This document shows positions 4,201-52,231 of a stretch of 64,000 bases of DNA, in pieces. How positions within the stretch are numbered: the first letter of the stretch is position 1; each line of letters opens with the position of its first letter. The DNA is from Desulfolutivibrio sulfodismutans DSM 3696 (lineage in GTDB: Bacteria > Desulfobacterota > Desulfovibrionia > Desulfovibrionales > Desulfovibrionaceae). Below the pieces are notes generated by a model. It made no database searches. It was not told where the DNA came from and saw only the letters and a program-made list of their open reading frames with translations. The position numbers were made by a program, and so were the translations under genes. The stretch covers positions 558,001-622,000 of the forward strand of contig NZ_CP045504.1 in assembly GCF_013376455.1 (NCBI RefSeq), written 5' to 3'.

Positions 4201-6194
4201 AGCTGGAAAAGCTCAAATCCTCCAGTAAAATTGATGTGGTGTTTGAGCCGGACACCGCCTTGCTGGACAAGTTGATCGACCGTCTGAACGGCACGACAGC
4301 CACCCCCACGGCCACGGTCCAGGCCAACACCACGCGAGTGGATTCGGAACTGGAACGCTTAAACGGCATTCGGACCACCAGCGGACACACCGTCGATCCA
4401 AATACGCAGGCGGCCGAGGAGGCCATCGCCGAGCTCAAGCGCCCCACGTCCTCCGAGCACACCATCAATCTGACGGTCAAGGGGTCCGGCGATTTCAAGG
4501 TCGTGCCCACCGATTCCGAGGTGGAGGCCTATGCCACGGGCGGCCCGGTTTTCCGGCGGCTCCCGGCGCCGTTCATCCCCGGCGACGGACGCAAAGACGA
4601 TGTTCCCGCGATGCTCATGCGCGGGGAGTTCGTGGTTCGCAAGGACGCGGTGAAACGCTACGGCGTGGACCTGCTCCACGCGCTGAATTCCGGGCAATTG
4701 CCGGTCCCGAAATTCGCGTCCGGCGGATTGGTCGGCGGGCTGGCTGGCGGCATCGCCGATCTGGCCCGGATGCTGCGCCGATCCGTGGGCATCCCGGAGC
4801 CGCAGCCCCGGCCGCGCAGCCTGTCGCCGCTTGGGCTGTCGGCCGTGTCGCGATTCGAGGGCATCCACGACGCGGCGGTCACGAAATTCGCGTCCGGCGG
4901 CAGCCTGGACGAGGAGCTGGCGGACATCGCCCTGACCCGGGCCAGGACGCAGGAGGATTACGACCTGGCCGTCACCCGGGCGCGCGCCGACGGGGACGAG
5001 GATTTGGCCGACAGCCTGGCCGACGAGCAAGAGAAAATTGACGAAATTGCGGAGAAACTCCAGGAGGCGTTGCAGGAACTTCAGTCCGAATACGAGGAGT
5101 TGGTGGCCGAGGCCGAGGAGGTCCGGGCCGAGACGCTGGCCGAGCTGTACGAAACTAAACAGGCTTACGACGAGGAGCGGAAAACGAAATTGGAGTCGCT
5201 CAAGGCCGCGCTTGCCGAGGCGAAAAAGGGGAGCGGAGAGAACAGTTCCGGCGTGTATCCGATTTTTACGAAATATTCCACTGGGGTACTGACCCGTAGC
5301 GTGATGACCTTTGGCCGTACCGCGACGACGCCAGGGGCGAATTCCGGTGCGAAAAAAGCGGTCATGGAGGCCCAGGCCGCGTACGACGCCGAGAAAAACA
5401 GCACCGAGCCCAACAAAAAAATGGTCGAGTTTTTGGCCGGGCAGGTCAACGCCGGGACCGAATTCCAGACCGCCGTGAACGCCGCCAAGGCGGCACTCGA
5501 CGAGTCCAAGGCCGAATCCGAGGCCGAGGCCGCCGCCGACACCTCCGAGGCCCGGGCCGACGGCGAGGCCGAGCGCGCCGACATCCAGAAAAGCCTGGAC
5601 GAAAAGCTGGCCGACCTGCTGCTGGACTACAACCGGACCATGGAGGATTTGAGCATCCGCGAGGGCCGGGCCAGGGCCAATGCCGACGAGGACAAGCAGT
5701 ACAGCGTCAGTGGATTTTCCCAGTGGTTGGCCGAGGGCGGGCCGGTGGGCCTGCCGATCCGGCGCATGGAGGCGGCGATAAATCGGATGGCCGCGCGGGT
5801 CCGCAGATTTGCCGAGGGCGGCATCGTGCCCCTGGCCGAGGGCGCGCGGCGCGGCGTGGACAGCGTCCCGGCGCTCCTGGCCCCGGATGAGGGCGTGCTC
5901 AAGGCGTCGACGATGCACCGGCTCGGGAGCGGGGCGTTCAACGCGCTCAACAGTTGGGACATGGACTTGTTCCTGGACAGCCTGCGCGTGCACCGTTTTG
6001 CCGAGGGCGGCGTGGTGCCCGGCGGCGACCTGGCCACGTCCCTGCCCGACACCCCCCGGCGCGCCAGCGGCGAGGAATTTTCCGCCACGATCAATCTCCA
6101 GATGGGCGGCCAGACCTTCCCCACCCACACCAGCCGCGACACGATCACGGCCTTTATGCGCGAACTCAAAAAACACGGGGCCAACATCCGATGA
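1287..6194 (+). CDS. Phage tail tape measure protein
   Basis: A 1,635-residue protein, by far the longest in the prophage, starting 18 nt after the previous stop with GGGAGA upstream. Residues about 65-300 hold three direct repeats of 79-90 residues. Long Ala/Glu/Lys-rich coiled-coil runs follow, interrupted by hydrophobic segments around residues 560-680. The C-terminal half has several copies of the FA(T/E)GG..P...DSVPA(M/L)L motif typical of tape measures (residues about 1085, 1515 and 1570). The protein sets tail length and helps DNA entry; at about 0.15 nm per residue it predicts a tail near 245 nm. A closely spaced tail cluster follows. Confidence 0.93.
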   Translation: MASNILDIKIKAETDEAQAKLEHLGQVIKKGLAQEGLAALESMSTRVEQAFAGIELEGVRRVGAVQKAFSELGVLSTDKVRAQIQQIIASYRTLSESGEVSARDLETAHASMVAKIQAVSAAYRESGAAAKSGMTEAGAATATGMAEAEAAILSTDTALATLGVRSAAQVKDKIQELVAAYRALRDSGELSGRDLAAAHAAMVTKIQAVSAAYRSTGGAAKSGMAEAEAATRATDKALASLGVQSGAQVKARIQELITSYRTLRDSGTMSTRDLAVAKTALTAKLQQLAQGYRNAGQQQRGLSSEMGRAPGLIQNVDARLKNLLQTYLGLYAAQKIFTGIVTAYKNAETASFNLESAVKSASREFSQTGGIDRWRAAIGQMRQELVIYSESDLTAAAAKTINMTKRLGLSADQMEVVMRRTADIAAGKMPLADAIERVTAAIRGESEASEMLGLTLNESHVKERYEELYQVQGRAWSSLTELEKAQIRYNVLLEQTQADIGKARDSANTYAGALKYITSVLEDTVAKNESLAEAMVTLGDYFRNNASEVAALATALVEIAAAVVKFTVEYKEIVALAGVSYIAAKGIATVTTAVTGLAGMVKLIQGTKLLATLASWSSGFVGLAASMARLPALGAAVGAIFSPTGLLIGGVAAAGVSLYYLIDAMMETNDASEEMAKTHALNAKEVDDLIAKYGGLSESFATAFEKLMAQEQQTAMTAAEFKVLSDRVRDMGAAHAEAEKLIGGLMDAQIKLAEAMAQSDAGALVAGVATARKKKDLLVSLANDTFAAQQELLSKAVYDEAAKGEISKEIAKSRKEAYVRAWQEYLDRLGQDVDKAIAIEAKYAQEIEKVRTSGEDKLREIRRKGMTEAQAYLDRQKQASDLLFAAEMERAKGTADGFAKANELAAKAIPLYEGLATASKESGVSQQEAISIAEAGVRRALDIQVQSLEALKTAGQQLRTEMQSGVADAQAELEKLKSSSKIDVVFEPDTALLDKLIDRLNGTTATPTATVQANTTRVDSELERLNGIRTTSGHTVDPNTQAAEEAIAELKRPTSSEHTINLTVKGSGDFKVVPTDSEVEAYATGGPVFRRLPAPFIPGDGRKDDVPAMLMRGEFVVRKDAVKRYGVDLLHALNSGQLPVPKFASGGLVGGLAGGIADLARMLRRSVGIPEPQPRPRSLSPLGLSAVSRFEGIHDAAVTKFASGGSLDEELADIALTRARTQEDYDLAVTRARADGDEDLADSLADEQEKIDEIAEKLQEALQELQSEYEELVAEAEEVRAETLAELYETKQAYDEERKTKLESLKAALAEAKKGSGENSSGVYPIFTKYSTGVLTRSVMTFGRTATTPGANSGAKKAVMEAQAAYDAEKNSTEPNKKMVEFLAGQVNAGTEFQTAVNAAKAALDESKAESEAEAAADTSEARADGEAERADIQKSLDEKLADLLLDYNRTMEDLSIREGRARANADEDKQYSVSGFSQWLAEGGPVGLPIRRMEAAINRMAARVRRFAEGGIVPLAEGARRGVDSVPALLAPDEGVLKASTMHRLGSGAFNALNSWDMDLFLDSLRVHRFAEGGVVPGGDLATSLPDTPRRASGEEFSATINLQMGGQTFPTHTSRDTITAFMRELKKHGANIR
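1479..2186 (+). repeat. Three tandem coding repeats in the tape measure N-terminus
   Basis: Three units built around LGV-x-S-x(4)-V-x(3)-IQ, then SYR-L--SG--S-RDL, then AK-QAVSAAYR recur at residues about 72, 162 and 241 (spacing 90 and 79). Units 1 and 2 share AKIQAVSAAYR-like segments almost exactly; unit 3 has diverged. This is recent internal duplication that would lengthen the tail. Confidence 0.85.
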
Positions 6195-6571
6195 GCATCA
6201 CCCTCTCCGGCCTCACGCTCCCGCCGGATCTGATCTGGTCCAACGAATTCGCCGCCGCGCTGGTCGGCCGCACCAGCCGCCGGACCATCGGCGGCGGGCT
6301 GGTCATCCAGGACACCGGCCTGTCCGGCGGCCGCCCGATTGACCTCACCGGAGAGGACGGCTGGTGCCTGCGGCCGGTGGTCGAAACGCTTTTTGCCTGG
6401 GCGTCCACGCCGGGCTGGACCGGCACGCTCACCCTACACGACGGCCGGACGTTTGCCGTGCGGTTCCGGTTCGGGGACGAGGCCCCGGTCACGGCCACGA
6501 TGATCCGCGACGAGGCCGATCCGGACGCCACGACGCTTTACAATCTCAATCTGCGGATGGAGACGGTCTAG
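6191..6571 (+). CDS. Small phage tail protein downstream of the tape measure
   Basis: A 126-residue protein whose ATG overlaps the tape-measure stop. It reads like a compact beta-rich tail component: LTGEDGWCLRPVVETLFAW, then a beta-hairpin segment GTLTLHDGRTFAVRFRF. The location directly after the tape measure is where distal-tail or minor-tail proteins are encoded in siphoviruses. No specific family is recognised with certainty. Confidence 0.75.
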   Translation: MSITLSGLTLPPDLIWSNEFAAALVGRTSRRTIGGGLVIQDTGLSGGRPIDLTGEDGWCLRPVVETLFAWASTPGWTGTLTLHDGRTFAVRFRFGDEAPVTATMIRDEADPDATTLYNLNLRMETV

Positions 6572-6573
6572 CC

Positions 6574-7434
6574 ATGCCCGCCAAGGCGTCGCTACGTCTG
6601 GACTTCGGGTCCGATACCTGCCCCGGGGCGCTATTTGAAATGCCCGAGCAGGCCGTGGACCCGGGCGAGCTGATGACGCTGCGCATTTGGGCCGCCACCG
6701 AGGCCATGCTCGACGGCTACGAGCTGCGCCAGGGGTTGCAGTCGCTGGGGCTGGGCGAGCGGGTGGACTATCCCGGCCAGGTGACGTGCAAATATTTTGA
6801 TTGGGCGGGCGAAAATACCGCCCAGCAGTTTACCTTCCCCGTCTCGCGCATCACCCGGGTGACCGCGTTCGCGCCGCTTTTGTGCGTGGTCGGCGACGAG
6901 TTGGTCACGGTCGCGCCCCAGGGCCACGACGTGACGGATAAATTCGTCCGCGTCGGTCACTCCTGCCTGGCGCCGATCCTGGGCCAGTTCCCCGGGCCGC
7001 TTTACGGCACCACCCACGCCGTGGCCGAGCGGCCGCCCTACGCCCGGGAATGGGCCTGGACCGCGCCCAGCGACCCGACCGGGGCGCAGTGGTTTTTCCT
7101 GTACCGGGGTGGCGTGCTCAAGCGCCGGTTTTCGCTGGCCCTGTCCGACGAGCCCGAGGACGCATCCATCAAATATGTGGATTGCAAAATCCGAGTGATC
7201 GACGCCGACACCGCCGGGGCCGTGCTCGGGGCGCAGGTCTACATCGAGATCGGCGAGGACTACGTGGATCTGGGCCTGACCGATGACCGCTACGGCTTCG
7301 TCAAGGTTTTCAATATCTTGTCCGGTGAATACCGGGTGGTGGTGGAGAAGGACGGCTACGAATCGAACGCCGAGATGATCACCATCACCCCGGACGGCGA
7401 CGAGGTCCGGGTGCAAATCGAGGTGGCCGCCTGA
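6574..7434 (+). CDS. Phage tail protein with a C-terminal carboxypeptidase-regulatory-like beta domain
   Basis: A 286-residue protein beginning MPAKASLRLDF. Residues 1-195 are paralogous to the next gene: shared MPAKASL start, (S/A)VDPGE, a YxLRQGxQxLG motif, and a WFFL-R-GVL-- segment. Residues about 200-286 form a beta-sandwich-like domain (IRVIDADTAGAVLGAQVYI to GEYRVVVEKDGYES), as in CarboxypepD_reg/PEGA-type adhesive modules. It is probably a tail-tip component. The gene ends in a TGATG overlap with its paralogue. Confidence 0.75.
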   Translation: MPAKASLRLDFGSDTCPGALFEMPEQAVDPGELMTLRIWAATEAMLDGYELRQGLQSLGLGERVDYPGQVTCKYFDWAGENTAQQFTFPVSRITRVTAFAPLLCVVGDELVTVAPQGHDVTDKFVRVGHSCLAPILGQFPGPLYGTTHAVAERPPYAREWAWTAPSDPTGAQWFFLYRGGVLKRRFSLALSDEPEDASIKYVDCKIRVIDADTAGAVLGAQVYIEIGEDYVDLGLTDDRYGFVKVFNILSGEYRVVVEKDGYESNAEMITITPDGDEVRVQIEVAA

Positions 7435-26900: not shown

Positions 26901-27274
26901 TGGACTTGACGCGGGAGCTTTCGGCCGAGGAACGGGAGTGGGTCGAGGCCTGGCTGCCGGGGCTGCCCATGCGCATTGCCCGGCGGCAGGTCGAGGATCG
27001 AATGGGCGGCGTGGTCTCGTACAAGGCCCTGTGCAACGAGGATTCGCGGGGACAGGGCCCGGCGGTTCGCTACGAGGTCGGCACGTCCACCAACGCCAGG
27101 GTGCTCTACGACACCAGGGCGCTCCTGGAGTGGATCGTGCGCCGGTACGGGGTCACGCCCCGCACGAATCTGGCGGGCATGGCGGCGCGCACAGTCTCGC
27201 CACGTCGGACTGCAGGGCGGAGGGGATCAGGTGCGCGTACCGCTGGGTCATCGCCAGGGACTCGTGCCGCATGA
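26900..27274 (+). CDS. Phage protein, end overlapping the integrase gene
   Basis: A 124-residue frame starting in a TGATGG overlap with the clamp gene. Residues 1-90 (LSAEEREWVEAWLPGLPMRIARRQVEDRMGGVVSYKALCNEDSRG, then YEVGTSTNARVLYDTRALLEWIVRRYG) look like a genuine DNA-binding or adaptor protein of the excisionase/AlpA position. The last 30 residues are basic and low-complexity and overlap the convergent integrase by 122 bases, so the natural C-terminus may have been replaced at a recombination point. Confidence 0.6.
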   Translation: MDLTRELSAEEREWVEAWLPGLPMRIARRQVEDRMGGVVSYKALCNEDSRGQGPAVRYEVGTSTNARVLYDTRALLEWIVRRYGVTPRTNLAGMAARTVSPRRTAGRRGSGARTAGSSPGTRAA

Positions 27275-28334
27275 GGCGTTGGATGCGGTACAGGTCCGTG
27301 CCATCCAGAGCCAGCCAGGAGGCGAAGGTATGCCGCAGCGAATGAAAGGTCAGGAGATGGCGGCGGTCGGTGATGCCGTCGTTTATGCCGCAGCGGTCTG
27401 CCACGCGACGGAACATGTCGCTGTACCAGTGGCGGTCGCCGCGAGGCGCAAACAGGCGCGGCAGCCCGACGTCGAGGCGGCGCGCCAGCACGGCGGCGGC
27501 GGCGGCGTTGACGGGCACGATGCCGCCCGGCTTGCCGCCTGTGTCGCGCACATGGAGCAGGCCGTGGACAAGATCCACGTCCGGCCGGGCCAGGCGCATC
27601 AGTTCTCCCAGGCGCAGGCCCGTGTTCACGGCCAGGATCGCCGCGTCCTGGAACAGCGGCAGATCTGCGGCGGCGTCAATGAATCGCGTGAATTCGTCGC
27701 GGGTGAAAAAGCGCAGCCGGGCATTTTGGAGCCGGGGCAGGCGGATGCCGCAAACCGGGTTGCGGCCCTCGAAAAGACCCAGGCGCGACAGGTGGTTGAG
27801 GGTGGCCCGCAGCACGGCCAGGCACTGCAGGGTGGTGGCCGGGGAGCGCCGGGACAACAGCTCGTCGCGCAGGGACTCGATGTGCCCGACGGTGATCTCG
27901 GCCGGAGTCAGGTCGCCCAGGCGCGGCAGGACGTGCAGGCGCAGGCGCTGGGCGTCGTCGGATGCCGAGCGTTTGTTGCGCGTAGCCCAGGGCAGGTAGT
28001 GGGTCTCGGCCAGGTGGCGCAACGACTGGGCGTCGCGCGCGGCCTGGGTGGCGGCCTGGGCTTCGGCGTCGCGGCGGCGTTCGGCCTCGGCCCGCAGCGT
28101 GACCAGGGTGTGGCCGGGCTGGCCGGTGGCGTGGGCGCGGTTGAGTTCGGCCAGGATGGCGGCGGCTTTCTTCGCGGACCAGCCGTCGGAGGCCCAGCCC
28201 AGGGCCTCCTCGATGGCCCGGCCGTCGCGACGGTAGCGCAGGGTGAAATAGCAGTCGGGCGCGCCGCGATGCAGGCGCGTGGGGTGCTCGCGGTAGCGCA
28301 CGCCGGGGTAGGGACTCGAGTGTTTAGCGGCCAT
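27153..28334 (-). CDS. int: Tyrosine recombinase (prophage integrase)
   Basis: A 393-residue protein starting at 28334 (MAAKHSSPYPGV). Residues about 1-60 resemble the arm-type DNA-binding region, 95-185 the core-binding (SAM-like) domain. The catalytic domain has the full set: TGLRLGEL (Arg I), K in the beta-hairpin, LTFHSLRHTFAS (HxxR), LMRHESLAMTQRYAHL (His and Tyr nucleophile). It lies directly beside the tRNA-Sec fragment and points away from it, as expected for a phage using the tRNA 3' end. Integration site selC is therefore likely. Confidence 0.95.
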   Translation of the reverse strand: MAAKHSSPYPGVRYREHPTRLHRGAPDCYFTLRYRRDGRAIEEALGWASDGWSAKKAAAILAELNRAHATGQPGHTLVTLRAEAERRRDAEAQAATQAARDAQSLRHLAETHYLPWATRNKRSASDDAQRLRLHVLPRLGDLTPAEITVGHIESLRDELLSRRSPATTLQCLAVLRATLNHLSRLGLFEGRNPVCGIRLPRLQNARLRFFTRDEFTRFIDAAADLPLFQDAAILAVNTGLRLGELMRLARPDVDLVHGLLHVRDTGGKPGGIVPVNAAAAAVLARRLDVGLPRLFAPRGDRHWYSDMFRRVADRCGINDGITDRRHLLTFHSLRHTFASWLALDGTDLYRIQRLMRHESLAMTQRYAHLIPSALQSDVARLCAPPCPPDSCGA

Positions 28335-28465
28335 GCCTGCCCCACACCTGCCCCACAAATTTTCAGCGACCAGGGCAGACGTGGGAAAGCACTACAGAGA
28401 TTTCCCGTGGATTACAAGGGGATGAGTAGAGAGGGGATAGGCAGGGAATGCGCGAAAAAGGGGTG

Positions 28466-28535
28466 CGTCCGGACTTCAAATCCGGTGTGCGGTCGAGAGG
28501 TCGCAGGTAGGTTCGACTCCTATACGCTTCCGCCA
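28466..28535 (+). other. selC: attR: 3' part of tRNA-Sec (UCA)
   Basis: The anticodon arm CCGGA-CTTCAAA-TCCGG (28469-28485, anticodon TCA at 28476-28478), the long variable arm, the T-arm GTAGG-TTCGACT-CCTAT, the 8-nt acceptor strand ACGCTTCC, G73 and CCA (28533-28535) are all present. The matching 5' acceptor strand GGAAGCGT and a D-arm are not found upstream: only 16 bases separate GGAATGCG from the anticodon stem. This is the duplicated 3' end left by integration. The intact gene is expected left of the window. Confidence 0.88.
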
Positions 28536-41032: not shown

Positions 41033-41131
41033 CTCAATACTTATGTATAAATTGCATCGATAGGGGCAATCGGAAAAGATGATGTGAAGAATTTCACCTG
41101 TCCATGGGCAGACGCCACGGCCAGGTGGAGA

Positions 41132-41256
41132 GGATGGGTGAAACCCATCCCAGGCCCGGATGGATCATGGTTTCCGGAAGCCCTGAGCAGGGGCGGCCTG
41201 TGGATGGGAGTCGTTTACGCAACCGGCGTGCGACGGCAGGACTACCGCACCTGCCG
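41132..41256 (+). ncRNA. Candidate structured leader RNA of the hdr-mvh operon
   Basis: Several perfect hairpins follow one another: GGATGGG/CCCATCC (41132-41150), CAGGCC/GGCCTG (41151-41200) enclosing CGGA/TCCG and CCCT/AGGG hairpins as a three-way junction, and CGGCAGG/CCTGCCG (41234-41256). It matches no riboswitch class I can name with confidence. Confidence 0.45.
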
Positions 41257-41498
41257 GATGGAGAGGGTGCTGTTGAGGGCTGTGCCTGTCGACAGTTTCA
41301 AATCCACAGAAAACAAGATGGTCGAGGCTTTATCCACACCATGTCCAACGCCGATTTTTGTCGGGAGGACGGGCGAGGGGTGGAGTTCGGTCGAAATGCA
41401 GTTGGTTCTTCGGGGCCGCGAGAAGAGACGGTCGGTAACGGTGAACAGGGCTTTCCCGGAAGACGGGGCGGCTCAACCCAAAGCGAAAGGGGGTTTCA

Positions 41499-44400
41499 AT
41501 GTCGGCGAAAAAACTCGGTTCGGTCATGGTCGTTGGCGGCGGCATCGCAGGCATGCAGACCGCGCTCGACCTGGCCGATTCCGGCTACTACGTCTATCTG
41601 GTCGAGAAAAAAGCGGGCATCGGTGGGGTGATGGCTCAGCTTGACAAGACGTTCCCCACGAACGATTGCGCAATGTGAATTATCTCCCCCAAGTTGGTCG
41701 AGTGCGGTCGGCACTTGAATATCGAGTTGATGACGCTTTCCGAGGTGGTGGCGGTCGAGGGTGAGCAGGGCGATTTCACCGTGAAGGTGAAACAGCATCC
41801 GCGCTACATCGACATGGACAAGTGTATCGCCTGCGGCCTGTGCGCCGAGAAATGCCCCAAAAAGGTGGGCAACGAGTACAACGAAGGGCTGGACAAGCGC
41901 AAAGCGGCCTACATCCTGTACGGCCAGGCCGTGCCGCTCAAGTACGCCATTGACGCCGAGAACTGTATTTACATCCAGAAGGGCAAATGCCGCGCCTGCG
42001 AAAAGTACTGTCCCACCGGCGCGGTGAATTTCGACCAGAAAGAGACCATCATCGACGTCAACGTCGGTTCGGTCATCCTGGCCCCGGGATTCAAACCCTT
42101 CGATCCCACCGTCTTCGACACCTATGACTATGCCCACATCACGGATGTGGTCACCAGTCTCGAATACGAACGGCTGCTGTCCGCCTCCGGGCCGTGCATG
42201 GGCCATCTGGTGCGGCCGTCGGACCACACCGAGCCCAAGCGGATCGCGTGGCTCCAGTGTGTCGGATCGCGCGGCATCAACAAGTGCGACAACGGGTTCT
42301 GCTCCAGCGTCTGCTGCATGTACGCCATCAAGCAGGCCATCGTGACTAAGGAGCACACCACCGGCGACGTGGAACAGACCGTCTACTACATGGACATCCG
42401 TTCCCACGGCAAGGATTTCGAGAAATACTATGTGGATGCCGAGAAAAAAGGCATCAACTTCGTGCGCGCCCGTCCCCATTCCTTCCTCCCCGGCCCGGAC
42501 GGCAAGGGTGTGAAAACGCGCTGGGTGGACGAGCAGGGCGTCGAGCACAACGACGAATACGACATGGTGGTGCTGTCCATCGGCCTTGAGGCCCCGGCCG
42601 ACGCCAAGGCCCTGGCCGAAACCGCCGACATCCGCCTGGACAAGTACCGTTTCGCGGAGTGCGACAGCTTCGCGCCGGTGGCCGCCAGCCGGGACGGCAT
42701 CTACGTGGCCGGTTGCTTCCAGTCCCCCAAGGACATCCCCCAGTCCGTGACCGAGGCCTCCTCGGCGGCGGCCTGCGCGGCCATCACCCTGGCTGAGAGC
42801 CGGGGCGCCCTGACCAAGGAAAAGATCTATCCCCCCGAGAAGAACGTGGCCGCCGACGCCCCGCGCATCGGCGTGTTCGTGTGCTCCTGCGGCATCAACA
42901 TCGCCGGGGTGGTCAAGGTCGACGAGGTTGTGGAATACGCCAAGACCCTGCCCGGCGTGGTCTTCGTGGAAAACAACCTGTTCACCTGCTCCTCGGACAC
43001 CCAGGTGCTCATCGCCGAGAAGATCAAGGAGCATGCCTTAAACCGCATCGTGGTCGCGGCCTGTACCCCCCGCACCCACGAGCCCCTGTTCAAGGACACC
43101 CTGCGCGAGGCCGGGATCAACGAATACCTGATCGAGATGGCCAACATCCGCAACCAGAACAGCTGGGTGCATGGCGGCGAGCCCGAGAAGGCCACCGCCA
43201 AGGCCAAGGACCAGGTGCGCATCGCCGTGGCCAAGGCCGGGCTTCTGGCCCCCCTGGAATACCTCTCGGTCAACGTGGTCCAAAAGGCCCTGGTCATCGG
43301 CGGCGGACTGTCCGGCATGACGGCGGCCCTGGGCATCGCGGACATGGGCTACGAGACCGTGCTGCTGGAAAAGAGCAACATCCTGGGCGGCAACGCCCTT
43401 CGGCTCAACAAGACCTGGAAGGGCGAAGAGATCAAGCCCAGGGTCGCGGCGCTGGTCAAACGGGTGGAAAGCCATCCCAAGATCAAGGTGCTCACGAACG
43501 CCATGCTCAAGACCGCAGTCGGGTCCGTGGGCAACTTCGTCAGCGAGATCGAGGTCGGCGGCGAAACCCTGGCCGTCAACTACGGCGTGGGCGTGGTGGC
43601 CACCGGCGGTTCCGAATACAAACCCACGGAATACCTCTACGGCCACGACGACCGGGTCAAGACGCATCTGGAATTCGACGCCTTCCTGGATGTCAGCGCA
43701 AGCGAGGCCAAGGCGGCCCAGAATGTGGTGTTCATCCAGTGCGTGGGCTCGCGCGAACCCGGCCGTCCCTATTGCAGCCGGGTGTGCTGCACCCATTCGG
43801 TGGAGTCGGCCATTGAGCTCAAAAAGCTCAACCCCGACATGAACGTCTTCATCTTCAACCGCGACATCCGCACCTACGGGCTGCGCGAGGATCTCTACAC
43901 CGAGGCCAGGCGTCTGGGCGTGATCTTCGTGCGCTACGAGGTGGAGAAAAAGCCTCAGATCATAAAAGACGGCGACGCCCTGTACGTGGTGGGCGACGAC
44001 CCCATCCTGGGCAAGACCTTGAAGATCAAGGCCGACTACCTGGTCCTGGCCTCGGCCATCGTGCCCAACCAGACCAAGGAACTCGTGGAGCTCTACAAGT
44101 GCTCCGTGGGCGCGGACGGCTTTTTGACCGAGGCCCATCCCAAGCTCCGGCCCGTGGACATGTCCGTGGATGGACTCTTCCTGGCCGGGCTGTGCCACTA
44201 TCCCAAGCCCGTGGACGAGGCCGTGGCCCAGGCCCAGGCGGCCGTGAGCCGGGCCGGGGTCATCCTGGCCAAGTCGGTCATGCCCCTTGATTCCATCAAG
44301 AGCATGGTCACGGACAAGTGCGACGGCTGCGCCCTGTGCGTGGACACCTGCCCCTACAAGGCCATCTCGCTTACGGTCTATGTGGAGAACGGTCGCGAGC

Positions 44401-44543
44401 ACAAGCGCATCAGTACGGACAAGGCCCTGTGCAAGGGCTGCGGCATCTGCATGGCCACCTGTCCCAAGCAGGGCGTCGATGTGGGCGGCTTCACCATGAA
44501 CCAGCTCAAGGCCCAGGTCGAGAGCATTCTGATGGGCGTCTAA
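41499..44543 (+). CDS. hdrA: HdrA-like flavin/iron-sulfur protein, selenoprotein (Sec60)
   Basis: Reading the in-frame TGA at 41676-41678 as selenocysteine gives 1,014 residues from an ATG with AAAGGGGG upstream. The context [19 protein letters not shown] fits the family, where this position is normally Cys. Domains: FAD site ([19 protein letters not shown]), two [4Fe-4S] motifs ([21 protein letters not shown]), HdrA core ([18 protein letters not shown]), second FAD site ([19 protein letters not shown]), two C-terminal clusters ([24 protein letters not shown]). The protein carries flavin-based electron bifurcation; it combines two HdrA-like modules. No hdrBC is adjacent. Confidence 0.93.
41676..41715 (+). 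promoter_or_regulatory. Candidate SECIS element of hdrA
   Basis: Recoded UGA at 41676-41678. A hairpin AGTGC-GGTCG-GCACT (41701-41715) stands 22 bases on (loop 27 bases after the UGA). The GGUC loop is of the type seen in bacterial SECIS elements, where the loop carries GU. Confidence 0.6.
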
Positions 44544-44678
44544 CGCTTACGCGGCATGATACGGAGGCGGTTGCGACCATGTGCAGCGACCGTCTCCGGG
44601 ATGAATACACCATCATCATGCTGCGGGCGGGGCGACCATATGCGCCCGCCGCCGCATGAGGAAAAAGGAGAGGCAACC

Positions 44679-45116
44679 ATGGCTGACACCTATGAGCCGG
44701 TCATCATCGGCTTTCTCTGCAACTGGTGCGCCTATGCGGGGGGCGATCTGGCCGGGGTTTCCCGGTTGCAGTACCCCACGAACATGCGCGCCATCCGGGT
44801 CATGTGTTCCGGAATGGTCCATCCCAATCTGATCGTTGACGCCCTGCGCAAAGGCGCGGACGGCGTCATCGTCATGGGCTGACACCTCGGGGAATGCCAT
44901 TACCTGGACGGTAATAACAAAGCGTTGGCTAGGGCTGAAGGCGCCAAGGTCGTGTTGGAAGATCTGGGCATCGATCCGGAGCGTTTCGCCATCGAGTGGG
45001 TCTCGTCGGCCGAAGCGCCCCGGTTTGCCGAGGTGGTGACCGCCTTCACGGACAAGATCAGGTCTCTCGGACCCAATCCGCTCAAGAAAAAAACGGCCGC
45101 CTGTGCGTGCGCCTAA
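44679..45116 (+). CDS. mvhD: MvhD, hydrogenase iron-sulfur subunit, selenoprotein (Sec68)
   Basis: A 145-residue protein reading TGA at 44880-44882 as Sec. The family motifs are exact: FLCNWCAYAGGDLAG (residues about 11-25), IRVMCSGMVHP and VIVMG-U-HLGECHYLDGN, where other members have C-HPGDCHY. AAGGAGAGG precedes the ATG. MvhD carries a [2Fe-2S] cluster and links the Mvh hydrogenase to HdrA. Read as a stop, the TGA would remove half the protein, yet the frame continues with the family sequence. Confidence 0.93.
44880..44915 (+). promoter_or_regulatory. Candidate SECIS element of mvhD
   Basis: Hairpin ATTACC-TGGAC-GGTAAT (44899-44915), with the loop beginning exactly 22 bases after the UGA at 44880-44882. 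Neighbouring codons (GGT AAT AAC) depart from local GC-rich usage, as a structural constraint would produce. Confidence 0.68.
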
Positions 45117-45131
45117 GTCCGGGAGGAAACC

Positions 45132-46067
45132 ATGGTCACAATAGCGGAAGAATGGCTCAACTCGTGTTCGGGCTGTGAGATCGCGATCTTAAACATCGGC
45201 GACGTCCTGGTGGATCTGTTGCCGCAGCTTGAGTTCGTGCACATCCCGGTCCTTATCGACAAGAAATACTACGGCCAGACCGGCGAAAACAAAGAACTGG
45301 ACATCCCCGAGGCCGTCGTGGGCATCGTCTCCGGCGGCGTGCGCAACTCCGAGCACCTGGAGGTGCTCAAGAAGATGCGTGAGCGGTGCCAGATCCTCAT
45401 CGCCCTGGGCACCTGCGCCACGGACGGCGGCATCCCGGCCCTGGGCAACATGTATTCGCTCCAGGAGATCAAGGACTTCATGTACCGGGAATCGCCGACC
45501 ACCGTGCCTGGTCCCGACCCGGACTATAAAACCTACCACATCCCCGAGGCCTTCGAGACGGTCACCGCCCTGGACGAGCACGTCAAGGTGGACATCAAGC
45601 TGCCGGGCTGCCCGCCGCACCCTGATTGGATCACCGCCGCCGTGCTGGCCCTTCTGGACGGCAAGACCGAGCTCAACCTGCCCGAGCGGTCGGTGTGCGA
45701 CACCTGTCCCACCATTCGCAAAAGCAAGAAAAGCGCCGGGGATCTCAAACGCATCCTGGAGTGCCCGGAATTCGATCCGGAAAAGCCGGTCGATGACATG
45801 CGCTGCCTCCTGGAACAGGGATTCATGTGTCTTGGCCCGGTCACCCGGGCCGGGTGTTCGGGCATGACCGGCACGGCCCCCCGGTGCATCGCCACCCGTG
45901 TTCCCTGCCGGGGCTGCTACGGCCCGGTCAAGGACGGGGCCCTGCCCATCGTCGATTACGTGGGCGCGCTGTCCACCGTGGGCTACGACCCGCGCAAGAT
46001 GGTTGATCGCCGGGGCTTTTTGTGCCGGTTCAGCGGCGCGCACAGCGTGCTCAAAAAGATCGGCTAG
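45132..46067 (+). CDS. mvhG: MvhG, [NiFe]-hydrogenase small subunit
   Basis: A 311-residue protein without a Tat signal, so cytoplasmic. N-terminal cluster ligands in EEWLNSCSGCEIAI; further ligands in GTCATDGG, KLPGCPPHPD and the C-terminal ferredoxin-like Cys set (CDTCPTIR, CLGPVTRAGCSG, VPCRGCYGP). This is the F420-non-reducing (Mvh/Vhu) type. GGGAGG precedes its start 15 nt after mvhD. Confidence 0.96.
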   Translation: MVTIAEEWLNSCSGCEIAILNIGDVLVDLLPQLEFVHIPVLIDKKYYGQTGENKELDIPEAVVGIVSGGVRNSEHLEVLKKMRERCQILIALGTCATDGGIPALGNMYSLQEIKDFMYRESPTTVPGPDPDYKTYHIPEAFETVTALDEHVKVDIKLPGCPPHPDWITAAVLALLDGKTELNLPERSVCDTCPTIRKSKKSAGDLKRILECPEFDPEKPVDDMRCLLEQGFMCLGPVTRAGCSGMTGTAPRCIATRVPCRGCYGPVKDGALPIVDYVGALSTVGYDPRKMVDRRGFLCRFSGAHSVLKKIG

Positions 46068-46199
46068 TCGAAGGAAACGGCCCGGGGACAGGCATATCGG
46101 GCTCACCCCCGGGTCTTGAACGGATACGGACGCTTTTTTCTTGAACATATTCCTGGCTCGACGCCTCGGCAGTCGTCCCGGGATGAAGAGGAGAACCGC

Positions 46200-47666
46200 A
46201 TGGCTTCGCCAAATACCGCCAAAACGATCCGCGTCGCACCCGTGACGCGCATCGAGGGCCACGCCGGGTTCGAGATCATGCTCGACGACAGCGGCAACGT
46301 GGTCGACGCGCGCATGGCCATCATGACCCTGCGCGGCTTTGAAAAGTTTGTTGTGGGTCGGCCCGTGGAGGAAGTCCGGGACATCGTCAACCGCATCTGC
46401 GGCATCTGTCCCTGGAACCACCACCTGGCCTCCTGCAAGGCCGCCGACGGCTGCCTGGGAATCACCCCGCCCCCGGCCGGACGCAAACTCCGGGAACTGT
46501 GCCATATGCTGGCCTTTATCCCGGACAAGATCCTGCACTTCTACTTCCTGGCCGCCCCGGACTTCGTCCTTGGCCCGGATGCCGACTATTCGGTCAGAAA
46601 CGTGGTGGGCGTGGTCGGCGCCGCCCCGGACCTGGCCAAGCAGGTCGTGCACATGCGCTACAAGGTGCAGATGGCCCTGGAAAAGTTCGCCGGAAAGGTC
46701 ATCCACCCCATCGCCGCCGTGCCTGGCGGCTACTCCCGGCCCATGCTTGAGGAAGAGCGCAAGGAACTCCTGGCCGTGGTCAAGGAGGCCCTGGACTTCA
46801 GCGTCTTTTCGCTCAATTTCGCCAAAGAGAACGTGTTCCCCAAATATCTGGACGTGATCAACACCGTCGGCGTGTTCCCGTCCGGCTATCTGGGAACCGT
46901 TCGTCCCAGCGACGGGGCGCTTGAGTTCCACGACGGCGAACTGCGCATGATGGATCAAAATGGCAACTACGAGCAGTTCAAGTATCACGAATATCAGGAC
47001 TACATCGCCGAGCATGTGGAGCCCTGGACGTATCTCAAGTTCCCGTACATGAAAAAGGCCGGCAAAATCAGCCTGGACGAGACCAACCCCGTGGGCGTCT
47101 ACCGGGTCAACTGCCTGGCGCGCATCAACGTGTGCGACAAGATGGCCACGCCCCTGGCCCAGAAGGAACTGGAGATCTTCCGCTCCGCCTTCGGCCGTCC
47201 GGCGCACCAGACGCTTCTGTACAACTATGCCCGGTTGATCGAGCTCATCCAGTGCTGCGAACGGGCCGAAGAGCTCTTAAACGATCCGGAGATCACCAGC
47301 CGCGAGGTGCGTCACCAGAAGATCGAACCCCGGGCCGGAGAGGGCGTGGGCTGCCTTGAGGCCCCGCGCGGCACGCTGATCCACCACTACAAGACCGACG
47401 ACAACGGTCTGGTGACCATGGCCAACCTGGTGGTGGCCACGGGACACAACAACGCGGGCATGAACCTGGGCGTCAAGCAGGCCGCCAAGGCCCTGATCAA
47501 GGACGGCAAATACGACCAGGGGGTGCTCAATACCATTGAGATGACGATACGAGCATATGACCCGTGAATGAGCTGCGCCACCCACCGCCTGGACGGCGGT
47601 ATCGCTCTCGAAGGCCGTATCTACGACAGCAATGGCAAGCTCCTGGATACCTTGCGTAACTACTAA
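46200..47666 (+). CDS. mvhA: MvhA, [NiFeSe]-type hydrogenase large subunit, selenoprotein (Sec456)
   Basis: A 488-residue protein reading TGA at 47565-47567 as Sec, with AGAGGAG before the ATG. Nickel-site motifs: RICGICPWNHH (residues about 65-75) at the N-terminal L1 and DP-U-MSCATH at the C-terminal L2, where the first Cys, a nickel ligand, is Sec. After His the frame gives a further 25 residues (RLDGGIALEGRIYDSN..NY), the extension the maturation protease removes. The RIEGHAGFEI start is that of the family. Cytoplasmic, forms the Mvh complex with MvhG and MvhD. Confidence 0.95.
47565..47600 (+). promoter_or_regulatory. Candidate SECIS element of mvhA
   Basis: Hairpin ACCGCC-TGGAC-GGCGGT (47584-47600), the loop starting 22 bases after the UGA. 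Loop and spacing are identical to those of mvhD. Confidence 0.7.
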
Positions 47667-47700
47667 GAAGTTCGACACGCGGCGCCAACTGCCGTACAAA

Positions 47701-47732
47701 AGGCCGTCGCCCCTGGCGACGGCCTTTTTTCA
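47701..47732 (+). terminator. Rho-independent terminator after mvhA
   Basis: AGGCCGTCGCC, loop CCT, GGCGACGGCCT, then Ts: an 11-bp perfect stem. It lies between mvhA and the protease gene, so the latter may have its own or read-through transcription. Confidence 0.93.
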
Positions 47733-47756: not shown

Positions 47757-48251
47757 GTGGATTGGTCGCTCATGTTCGAGAAGCGGGTGATGGTTTTCGG
47801 ATGCGGCAACATTCTGAGGGGGGATGACGGCCTGGGACCGGCCGTGGTCAACATGCTGGAAGAGCAGGGCGGGTTGCCGGACGATGTGGGCCTTTTGGAC
47901 ATCGGCACCTCCATCCGGCAGGTGCTCCTGGACATGCTGCTCATGGACCCCAAACCGAAACGGATCATCGTGGTGGACGCGGTCACCGAGCCCAGCCGCA
48001 ACGCCGGAGAATTCTGGGAGATCGACGTGGACATGATGAGTCCGAAAAAGATCAAGGATTTTTCCCTGCACCAGTTTCCCTCGGTCAATCTCCTGAAAGA
48101 CATCAAGGAACAGACCGGGACCGACGTGCATATCCTGGTGGTGCAGACGGGCTACATCCCGGAGGAGATCACCGACCAACTGACGCCCGAGGTGGCGGCG
48201 GCCCTGCCCAAGGTGGCGGCCCGGGTCCGGGAGTTGTGCCTTCTGCCCTGA
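47757..48251 (+). CDS. Hydrogenase large-subunit maturation protease (HycI/HyaD/FrcD family)
   Basis: A 164-residue protein starting at a GTG with AGGAAGG eight bases upstream. The family motif GCGNILRGDDGLGPAVVNML is at residues about 15-34; its Asp/Glu and a later conserved Asp (VDAVTEPS) and His (SLHQFPS) form the nickel-sensing site. It cleaves the C-terminal extension of MvhA after the DPUxxCxxH motif. Position right after mvhA supports this. Confidence 0.93.
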   Translation: MDWSLMFEKRVMVFGCGNILRGDDGLGPAVVNMLEEQGGLPDDVGLLDIGTSIRQVLLDMLLMDPKPKRIIVVDAVTEPSRNAGEFWEIDVDMMSPKKIKDFSLHQFPSVNLLKDIKEQTGTDVHILVVQTGYIPEEITDQLTPEVAAALPKVAARVRELCLLP

Positions 48252-48433: not shown

Positions 48434-49555
48434 TCAATCCACGCCCAGCACCACGGAAAAGGCCTTGAACATGGCCCAGATGGGGTCGCCGACGGCAATG
48501 CCAAGGCGCTTCACAGACTCGTCGGTGACCAGGGCGCAGACCTCGGTGTCGTCATCCACCCTCATCACCACCTCGGCGGCGATGGCCCCCTCGTTGATGC
48601 GCAGCACCGTGCCGTACAACCGGTTGCGCATGCTGCTGACCGGGGCGTCGTCGTCCTTGACCAGGATCACCAGCGGGGCCTTGATGCTGGCCGTCACCAG
48701 GACGCCTTCCCGGATCTCGAGTTTTTCCAGGCTTTCGTTGGTGATGACTGAAACCAGTTCGTGCCCCCGGGGGGTGACCAGCGTCACCTCGGACAGGATC
48801 GTCCCGGTGCGGACCTTGGAGACCTGGCCGATGAAGGTGTTGCGGGCGCTGGTTTTCATCCTGGCCTCCTTGTGGATGTAATAGCTCACGAGGGACTGGA
48901 TGTCTTCCCTGGTGAAGCTCAGGTAGTGGGCGGTCAGGTTCACCGAGCCATGCCCCAGGATGGTCTGGACGACGGTCAAGGGCACGCCGCCCCGCAATAG
49001 CTCAACGGCCCGGGAGTGGCGCAGGATGCGCGGGTTGCAGAGTTCCTTGGGCAGGCCGCATTCCTGGCCCCGCTCGTAGAATTTTCGCCTGACGTAGCCG
49101 CCGTCCATGTGCAGGACCGAACCGCGCAGGGACAAAAACGCGGGATCGTCAAAGCACCGCGCCAATTCGTCGGCCACCGCCTGGGGCAGTTTGACCTCCC
49201 GGGGCAGAATCTCGCCCTCCTTGACGCCTCCGAAACGGACCACCCCTGTCCGCCAATCGATATCGACGCGATCATCAAGGGCCAGCACCTCGCCGAGCTT
49301 GGCCCCGCAATGGCGCAGAAGCAGAAAGATCACCCACACCCGCCCCCTGGAAAGCCGCACGTCGGGCCGCTTGGCGCGATCCTTCCAGGCCGTGAACGCG
49401 GCCGCAAGCGCGCTCAATTGATCAGATTCGAGATGCTTGATGTCGCCGGGGACGGAAAAAATTTTGGCCGGACAGGGCCGCCCCTGCGCCATGGTCGCGG
49501 CGGCCGGACATGGACCGGCGGCCCGGACTGCCTTTTTGGTGTGCGTTGTGACCAT
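48434..49555 (-). CDS. tunR: TunR-type tungstate/molybdate regulator (XerC/D-like domain plus two Mop domains)
   Basis: A 373-residue protein. Residues about 40-235 resemble a tyrosine recombinase, but two catalytic residues are changed: the first Arg is Lys (GAKLGEVL) and the HxxR histidine is Arg (RILRHSRA); LGH and the Tyr (LTAHYLSF) remain. Residues about 238-305 and 310-373 are two Mop/TOBE oxyanion-binding domains (NTFIGQVSKV.., NRLYGTVLRI..). TunR regulators of sulfate reducers are built this way and control molybdate/tungstate transport. A catalytic recombinase role is unlikely. modA and modB lie 2 kb away. Confidence 0.9.
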   Translation of the reverse strand: MVTTHTKKAVRAAGPCPAAATMAQGRPCPAKIFSVPGDIKHLESDQLSALAAAFTAWKDRAKRPDVRLSRGRVWVIFLLLRHCGAKLGEVLALDDRVDIDWRTGVVRFGGVKEGEILPREVKLPQAVADELARCFDDPAFLSLRGSVLHMDGGYVRRKFYERGQECGLPKELCNPRILRHSRAVELLRGGVPLTVVQTILGHGSVNLTAHYLSFTREDIQSLVSYYIHKEARMKTSARNTFIGQVSKVRTGTILSEVTLVTPRGHELVSVITNESLEKLEIREGVLVTASIKAPLVILVKDDDAPVSSMRNRLYGTVLRINEGAIAAEVVMRVDDDTEVCALVTDESVKRLGIAVGDPIWAMFKAFSVVLGVD

Positions 49556-49600
49556 CCCTGTGCTGTCTCCTGAGGTCGTCTGGCGGCGACACGCCATAAA

Positions 49601-51508: not shown

Positions 51509-52231
51509 ATGATGGCACGTTTTCTTGCTTCGTTGCTTTTTGTCGCGCTTCTGGCCCAAAACGCCCTGGCCGGGCCGCTTCTGGTGGCCGCTGGGGCCGG
51601 GTACAAAAAACTCGTGGATGAGGCCGCCACGGCCTACGAGGCCAAAACAGGCCAGAAGGTGGAATTGCTCTATGGCAATATGGGCCAGATATTTGGGCAG
51701 TTGAAGGGGGGAGGCGGCATCGACATCATCCTCGGGGATAAAAGCTATCTGAGCGCCTCGGGCGTGGAGTTCGATTCCTATGTCGAGATCGGGCAAGGCC
51801 ATCTGGTGGTGGCCTACGCCAAGGGGGTGGCCCTGTCCGCCCCGCAGGACATCGCCAAGCCGGAGATCAAAAAACTGGCCATGCCCGACCCGGCCAAGGC
51901 CATCTATGGCAAGGCCGCCTCGGAATATCTGGAGAAAAGCGGCCTGGCCGACAAGGTCAAGGACAAGCTCCTGGTGGTGGGCACGGTTCCCCAGGTCACG
52001 GCCTATCTGGTCAGCGGCGAAGTGGACGCCGGATTCATCAACGTCACGGACGCAAAGGGCGTGGCGGACAAGATCGGCGGCATGGTCCTGGTGGACCAGT
52101 CCCTGTATTCGCCTATCCGCATCGTGGCCGGAATCCTCAAGGAGACCAAGGAGAAGCCCGAGGTGAAGGCCTTTGCGGCCTTTCTGGCCTCGGAGGACGC
52201 CAAAAAACTGGCCGCCGCACATGGTCTGTAA
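51509..52231 (+). CDS. modA: Molybdate/tungstate ABC transporter substrate-binding protein
   Basis: A 240-residue periplasmic protein. Signal peptide ends ALAG (ARFLASLLFVALLAQNALA). The mature part reads AAGAGYKKLVDEAATAYEAKTGQKVELLYGNMGQIFGQL and IDIILGDKSYL, a divergent ModA-type lobe, then VAYAKGVALS and YSPIRIVAGILKETK. GGAGATCC precedes two adjacent ATGs. It lies 43 nt before modB. Confidence 0.88.
   Translation: MMARFLASLLFVALLAQNALAGPLLVAAGAGYKKLVDEAATAYEAKTGQKVELLYGNMGQIFGQLKGGGGIDIILGDKSYLSASGVEFDSYVEIGQGHLVVAYAKGVALSAPQDIAKPEIKKLAMPDPAKAIYGKAASEYLEKSGLADKVKDKLLVVGTVPQVTAYLVSGEVDAGFINVTDAKGVADKIGGMVLVDQSLYSPIRIVAGILKETKEKPEVKAFAAFLASEDAKKLAAAHGL

Follow-up and report, generated by a model that had tools for sequence, protein, structure and literature searches.

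An hdrA-mvhDGA operon of Desulfolutivibrio sulfodismutans with predicted selenocysteine in three subunits

In a 64,000-nt stretch of the genome of Desulfolutivibrio sulfodismutans DSM 3696 (contig NZ_CP045504.1, positions 558,001 to 622,000; hereafter the window, whose coordinates are used unless stated otherwise), an operon of four genes, hdrA-mvhD-mvhG-mvhA, contains three in-frame TGA codons, which raises the question of whether three of its genes are broken or whether TGA is read as selenocysteine (Sec). A preliminary description of the locus had taken the TGAs at 41676, 44880, and 47565 to be in frame, with family-specific sequence on both sides, and the positions and profile matches agree with this. 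We suggest that the operon almost certainly encodes a cytoplasmic Hdr-Mvh-type complex that is predicted to carry one Sec each in HdrA, MvhD, and MvhA. The triple-Sec operon is real and usual for its group, and it was already published in 2006.

For the gene models, TGA was read as Sec. All four genes lie on the forward strand in the order given above, with a TGA in HdrA, MvhD, and MvhA and not in MvhG. The hdrA gene (41499..44543) encodes 1014 residues, its single TGA (41676-41678) specifying residue 60; mvhD, of the FlpD family (44679..45116), encodes 145 residues with one TGA at 44880-44882 (Sec 68, motif MGUHLGECHY); mvhG, for the hydrogenase small subunit (45132..46067, 311 residues), is an open frame without in-frame TGA; and mvhA, for the NiFe hydrogenase large subunit (46200..47666), encodes 488 residues with one TGA at 47565-47567 (Sec 456). 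The start of mvhA was placed at ATG 46200, TTG 46116 being a possible alternative, and in each TGA-bearing gene the ATG start is preceded by a purine-rich stretch. As had been anticipated, an automatic call breaks all three genes: under translation table 11, hdrA shrinks to 41694-44543, beginning at a TTG and losing its first 65 residues, mvhD ends at 44882, and mvhA ends at 47567.

The family sequence runs across the interruptions. The mvhD product matches all 123 positions of the FlpD profile, and the HdrA profile match (residues 8-433) spans Sec 60. Residues 10-434 of MvhA match the VhuA model NF041785 with 464.9 bits, under its cut-off of 800, and residues 439-464 match the VhuU selenoprotein model NF041786 (E 6.9e-11) with 41.8 bits, under its cut-off of 70. 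MvhA also carries the marks of Mvh/Vhu large subunits, RICGIC near the N terminus fitting CxxC and the Sec motif AYDPUMSCATH near the C terminus fitting DP(C/U)xxCATH; a 26-residue extension follows MSCATH. The residue at the Sec position of MvhA is a nickel ligand, and Sec is found there in periplasmic NiFeSe hydrogenases. The proposal that each TGA occupies the position of a conserved cysteine (Cys) was borne out by alignment with the methanogen complex HdrABC-MvhADG (PDB 5odc), in which the three Sec residues align with the second Cys of FPTNDCSICI (HdrA, chain A), the first Cys of GGCHLGDCHY (MvhD, chain D), and the first Cys of AYDPCLSCATH (MvhA, chain F).

The genome has the full selA, selB, selC, and selD set. 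The gene for tRNA-Sec (selC) lies in the window at 28440..28531 on the forward strand (Rfam, 53.6 bits; cut-off, 47), although ARAGORN did not call it. The search for selA, selB, and selD that the preliminary description had suggested placed all of them over the cut-off and excludes an absence of selB and selD: selB is at C1:4099817-4101721 (372.8 bits; cut-off, 242.25), selA adjoins it (602 bits; cut-off, 267.9), and selD, which itself has one TGA, is at C1:238403-239329 (339.3 bits; cut-off, 125). Two observations concern the surroundings of such genes. About 80 bases separate tRNA-Sec from a tyrosine recombinase gene (27153-28358, reverse strand), an arrangement that looks as though selC served an integrative element as its site. 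In locus L009, a cobalamin riboswitch (6828-7010, reverse strand; 107.8 bits; cut-off, 31.5) stands near selB at the start of the frame 5786-6991 on the same strand.

A hairpin resembling a selenocysteine insertion sequence (SECIS) follows each TGA on the forward strand. That of hdrA (41698..41718; -11.1 kcal/mol) has 8 bp and the loop GGUCG, 27 nt past the TGA codon; those of mvhD (44899..44915; -4.0 kcal/mol) and mvhA (47584..47600; -9.8 kcal/mol) each have 6 bp and the loop UGGAC, 22 nt past the codon. The bacterial SECIS model set out in a 2026 review (PMC13188914) has a loop of 3-9 nt, a stem of 4-16 bp, a G in the first two loop positions, a distance of 16-37 nt from the UGA, and an energy of at most -7.5 kcal/mol. 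All three hairpins fit this model in loop length (5 nt), stem length, spacing, and the G at loop position 1 or 2, and those of hdrA and mvhA lie within the energy limit.

Because coding constraint contributes to the pairing, Cys-type homologues were used as the control for the conservation of these hairpins; columns were counted from the T of the TGA, and the counts take in the window and near relatives (distinct sequences: 32 of 34 for hdrA, 35 of 36 for mvhD, and 48 of 49 for mvhA). The mvhD and mvhA hairpins have a common form, a 6-bp stem at columns 20-25/31-36 around a 5-base loop xGGAx. All six pairs are present in 36 of 36 Sec-type mvhD loci versus 4 of 66 Cys-type loci; for mvhA, at least five of the six pairs form in all 50 Sec-type loci, 34 of which have the full six, versus 3 of 77 Cys-type loci. 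Two pairs of the mvhA stem have changed on both sides with the pairing kept, namely 21-35 (C-G in 42 loci, T-A in 8) and 23-33 (G-C in 48, A-T in 2). In the mvhD stem, the third bases of the H, Y, G, and N codons are invariant in the 36 Sec-type loci and variable in the Cys-type loci. The hdrA gene has two forms. The first, with an 8-bp stem at 23-30/36-43 and the loop GGTCG, has its six inner pairs in 23 of 34 Sec-type loci; the second, with a stem at 19-24/31-36 and the loop GAGGTC, occurs in the other 11 (six pairs in 8, five in 3), so that either form is found in 34 of 34 Sec-type loci versus 8 of 43 Cys-type loci. When the 3' partner was shifted by 1-3 bases, Sec-type pairing fell from 0.82 to at most 0.49 in hdrA, from 1.0 to at most 0.75 in mvhD, and from 0.95 to at most 0.68 in mvhA. 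When nucleotides 10-51 were folded and compared with synonymous recodings for each locus, z was below -1.5 in 23 of 34 Sec-type versus 4 of 43 Cys-type loci for hdrA (Mann-Whitney p 9e-8), 11 of 36 versus 5 of 66 for mvhD (p 3e-4), and 8 of 49 versus 8 of 76 for mvhA (p 7e-4).

Several points weigh against this interpretation. One pair is unformed in 16 of the 50 Sec-type mvhA loci, the outermost pair in 15 of them, and 11 of the 34 hdrA loci use the different hairpin, whose columns were chosen after inspection. The mvhD hairpin is weak by itself and misses the energy limit of the model, and a fold of the whole 54-nt stretch prefers another structure. Taken alone, the window gives no significant result, the fraction of recodings (n = 100) folding at least as well being 0.08 for hdrA, 0.35 for mvhD, and 0.53 for mvhA. 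The locus counts are not independent because the loci are related, and the support for the three Sec residues as a whole consists of sequence evidence.

To see how the Sec state is distributed, we refer to the window's own genome as G000, to relatives' genomes by other G numbers, and to loci by L numbers. Among 199 genomes of the family, a sample drawn evenly from a larger group, Sec-type MvhA is found in nine (G000, G041, G069, G071, G016, G105, G009, G003, and G019), with 59-100% identity and one TGA each. All three TGAs are also present in the operons of G041 and G069, of the same genus, and of G071 and G016, of the same family. In G105, G009, G003, and G019, neither hdrA nor mvhD was found beside mvhGA within the fetched 5.3-9.8 kb (two of these stretches were ended by contig ends), and the listed HdrA and FlpD matches hold no TGA; HdrA matches in three of the four hold stops of other kinds. 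Loci L044-L047, from four family members, have a Sec-type mvhGA without adjoining hdrA and mvhD. A ferredoxin-FlpD type fusion lies downstream in L044, L045, and L047 (profile-checked in L044), and by eye, molybdopterin-oxidoreductase-like and 4Fe-4S genes lie upstream in L046 and L047. We suggest that mvhGA in these loci may be a hydrogenase module with other partners.

At the phylum level, an MvhA relative was found at E 1e-60 in 127 of 395 sampled genomes. Forty-nine rows reached 554 bits or more, three being G000, G041, and G069, and the surroundings were fetched for 40 of the 46 others; further loci were taken from the best 80 of at least 583 relatives in a contig collection. The resulting survey comprised the window and 131 loci, in 56 of which (of 132 in all) at least one of the three genes was unreadable beside the others. 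TGA stands at all three places in 31 loci, including that of Desulfogranum marinum DSM 2058 (L132). L143, a contig of a Desulfonatronospira metagenome-assembled genome, carries a TGA in each of hdrA and mvhD and ends within mvhA. When operons were required to have the genes on one strand, in order, and within less than 12 kb, with duplicates dropped (L123 = L046, L249 = L136) and near-identical loci kept, 31 were all-Sec, 37 all-Cys, and 3 mixed, i.e., the state was all-or-none in 68 of 71; the all-Cys count is slightly too large because the HdrA match of L120 is a ferredoxin motif and the HdrA of L194 lies about 8 kb from mvhD. Four further all-Cys loci fail the order rule. All three mixed operons combine an MvhA that has kept Sec with a Cys-type MvhD; MvhD is the one Cys-type subunit in L261 and L262, and MvhA the one Sec-type subunit in L260. 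In a tree of 127 MvhA rows, obtained by a quick search that gave a long-branch warning among Cys-type rows, a single branch (support, 92) separates the 49 Sec-type rows from all others, and the three mixed loci are nested inside the Sec-type group. The separation of Sec-type MvhA by one branch suggests that the all-or-none pattern reflects mainly one old transition.

The preliminary description had held that only single parts of such a system were known and that the triple set stood out. The 31 loci found here and what is already in print do not support this view. An operon hdrA-frhD-frhG-frhA with Sec in HdrA, FrhD, and FrhA was described by Zhang, Romero, Salinas, and Gladyshev in 2006 (Genome Biol 7:R94; PMC1794560) in the three Sec-decoding archaea then known and in Deltaproteobacteria, with Syntrophobacter fumaroxidans and Desulfotalea psychrophila as bacterial examples, and the 2026 review treats frhA-frhD-hdrA as a typical selenoprotein operon, a table in it showing that frhA/frhD and mvhA/mvhD name the same families (PMC13188914). 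The window's operon resembles the one of 2006 in gene order, in having Sec in HdrA, D, and A and not in G, and in its host among the old Deltaproteobacteria; it differs in that the bacterial operons described there have an extra selenoprotein gene, GlpC, which is not in the window's operon. The same paper notes hdrA-hdrA genes and fusion events, with which the two-flavin HdrA of the window may be identical, and claims a transfer of the operon between archaea and bacteria (PMC1794560).

In Methanococcales, frhA, hdrA, and frhD often share one operon (PMC11227280), and Vhu and Hdr of methanogens form a tight complex in which the same three subunits, VhuU, VhuD, and HdrA, can hold Sec (PMC2933860). 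However, archaeal SECIS elements are in the 3' untranslated region (PMC11227280, PMC13188914), whereas the hairpins of the window are inside the genes, and in Vhu the A and U subunits are separate proteins (NCBIfam models), whereas the MvhA of the window is one piece. Among sulfate reducers, Desulfobacterium autotrophicum HRM2 is likewise described as having a Sec hdrA1 in one cluster with the genes for MvhA2DG, a cytoplasmic hydrogenase said to contain Sec, and its genome as holding four Sec-type copies of mvhD; unlike the window's operon, the cluster also adjoins hysAB (PMC2702500). The methanogen complex of PDB 5odc has homologous HdrA, MvhD, and MvhA but Cys at all three aligned places, and it contains HdrB and HdrC; in it, electrons from H2 pass through MvhA, MvhG, and the [2Fe-2S] cluster of MvhD to the flavin adenine dinucleotide of HdrA, where they are bifurcated to ferredoxin and, via HdrC and HdrB, to the heterodisulfide (PMC6019823). 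We found no literature on the operon of this particular genome, which is not to claim that such work is absent.

The HdrA of the window is a two-flavin form. Its first half consists of a TrxR-type domain with a ferredoxin insert, and its second half of an HdrA N-terminal domain, a second TrxR-type domain, and a C-terminal ferredoxin. Two-flavin HdrA of archaea has been termed type II, for which the source states that no biochemistry has been done, and a Glu and a Lys named there for bifurcation are kept in both of its halves (PMC12054007). By eye, the first half of the window's HdrA keeps both residues (SLEYERLL 220; CCMYAIK 272, with Lys 278), whereas the second half has HLEFDAFL and CCTHSVE, with Asp for the Glu and Glu 769 for the Lys; the protein is thus like archaeal type II in its two flavins and unlike it in the second half.

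The window's operon is minimal: it has four genes, and searches of the window gave no GlpC-, HdrB-, or FrhB-type gene. The window has no match to PF02754, the CCG domain of HdrB/GlpC-type proteins (no separate search for HdrC was made); 21 matches exist elsewhere in the genome, none with an internal TGA, although this search could not show the TGA of a GlpC because its Sec (residue 311) is outside the domain match (363-455). Some of the genome's other HdrA genes have HdrB-like CCG genes beside them. Neither the window nor the G041 and G069 stretches gave an FrhB-like gene, and a GlpC-like gene was found neither in the window nor in the approximately 1.5 kb before hdrA in G041 and G069. Across the 31 all-Sec loci, an frhB-like gene stands after mvhD and before mvhGA in 15 (as in L231, 6991-8103, a F420-hydrogenase beta-subunit-like gene and the only one profile-checked), and a GlpC-like match of more than 200 residues occurs in 11, being Sec-type in L132 and Cys-type in G071 and G016, where it lies within about 1.5 kb before hdrA. 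A search of G000 with whole GlpC gave relatives elsewhere, one of which, at C1:3909196-3910380, bears a TGA and is probably a further selenoprotein of the genome; HmcF/TmcB/GlpC-type proteins with TGA at the site NTEUGHE were also read in L268, L269, and L272.

Could the TGAs instead be true stops or assembly errors, with one or more of the genes broken or ending there? Table 11 does end mvhD and mvhA at the TGA, and the Cys-type relative L243 has a TGA stop just past its MvhA motif. However, the L243 TGA follows an intact Cys motif, its Cys being kept and a stop coming soon past it, unlike in the window, and no homologue ending at an aligned TGA was seen among the relatives read. The family match continues beyond each TGA, the assemblies of relatives show the same TGA at these sites, and the Sec machinery is present; we therefore regard this explanation as extremely improbable. 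A reading of TGA as another residue, such as Trp or Cys, is just as hard to credit. Nothing was found in its favor, the Sec reading having been the one chosen for translation, and it is opposed by the aligned residue of the relatives, which is Cys and not Trp, by the presence of selA, selB, selC, and selD, by the protease frame downstream of mvhA, which ends in TGA and indicates that TGA appears to act as a stop here, and by the hairpins, which accompany TGA and not Cys codons.

Given the Sec reading, there is the further question of what the complex does. By homology, MvhA and MvhG would split H2 at the NiFe site, with Sec in place of Cys, electrons would pass from the MvhD cluster to the HdrA flavin, and HdrA would divide them between ferredoxin and a second acceptor. 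It is possible, though doubtful, that the Sec proteins instead form a simple H2-oxidizing module for one acceptor, without electron bifurcation. The window has no CCG-domain, FrhB-, or GlpC-like match, and the second half of HdrA has Glu 769 at the place corresponding to Lys 278 and Asp for the Glu, which would agree with such a module (roles as given in PMC12054007). However, the first half keeps both residues, and the HdrB-like CCG proteins encoded elsewhere in the genome, some beside other HdrA genes, could be shared. As for a bifurcating complex, we tentatively put forward, as an unlikely but specific proposal, that the window's genus has a reduced, self-contained form (an operon of four genes that lacks an HdrB, GlpC, or FrhB partner and encodes a two-flavin HdrA whose second half no longer has the bifurcation Lys), which may couple H2 to ferredoxin and a further acceptor within one HdrA, the three selenium sites being kept as a unit.

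The claim that the complex is strongly selenium-dependent holds in part. A search of the genome at E 1e-20 gave no second MvhA of the same type and just one further MvhA-like match, with 34% identity over residues 299-466. However, a Cys HdrA with 60% identity is encoded together with a Cys MvhD at C1:1668162-1671629, and only one of the six FlpD matches of the genome has a TGA. The paralogues suggest that the complex may be partly replaceable at HdrA and MvhD and not at MvhA.

Downstream of mvhA, a perfect 14-bp inverted repeat ending in a T run (47698..47728, forward strand), which the pattern scan did not list, is likely a terminator. It is followed by a gene for a hydrogenase maturation protease (47757..48251, forward strand; 164 residues; TIGR00072, PF01750), which probably removes the MvhA extension by cutting after MSCATH; the Cys-type MvhA of L243 (10420-10446), with its TGA stop directly after CATH, would need no C-terminal cleavage. 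By eye, the hdrA-mvhD spacer (44544-44678) holds two adjacent inverted repeats, which the repeat finder did not list, and similar repeats seem present in the different spacer sequence of L040 and L041. Ahead of hdrA lies a leader of roughly 400 nt (about 41060-41490), which is about 80% identical in G041 and largely absent from G069; it has no match over the cut-off among known RNA families (Rfam). A codon-score scan of the window for other TGA-interrupted genes gave the hdrA site only; it missed mvhD and mvhA and is thus uninformative on absence. Farther downstream, a phage-integrase-type region fused to TOBE/Mop molybdate-binding domains (48434-49597, reverse strand), near modA (51509-52231, forward strand), looks like a molybdate or tungstate regulator, presumably TunR-like.

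Since automatic annotation breaks all three genes, the complex can readily escape notice in sulfate reducers. The comparison defines the SECIS-like hairpins of all three genes exactly enough for them to be tested, and it indicates that the three subunits share their Sec state, mainly via one old transition. For D. sulfodismutans, the operon marks a hydrogenase predicted to require selenium, with apparently no other of its type in the genome.

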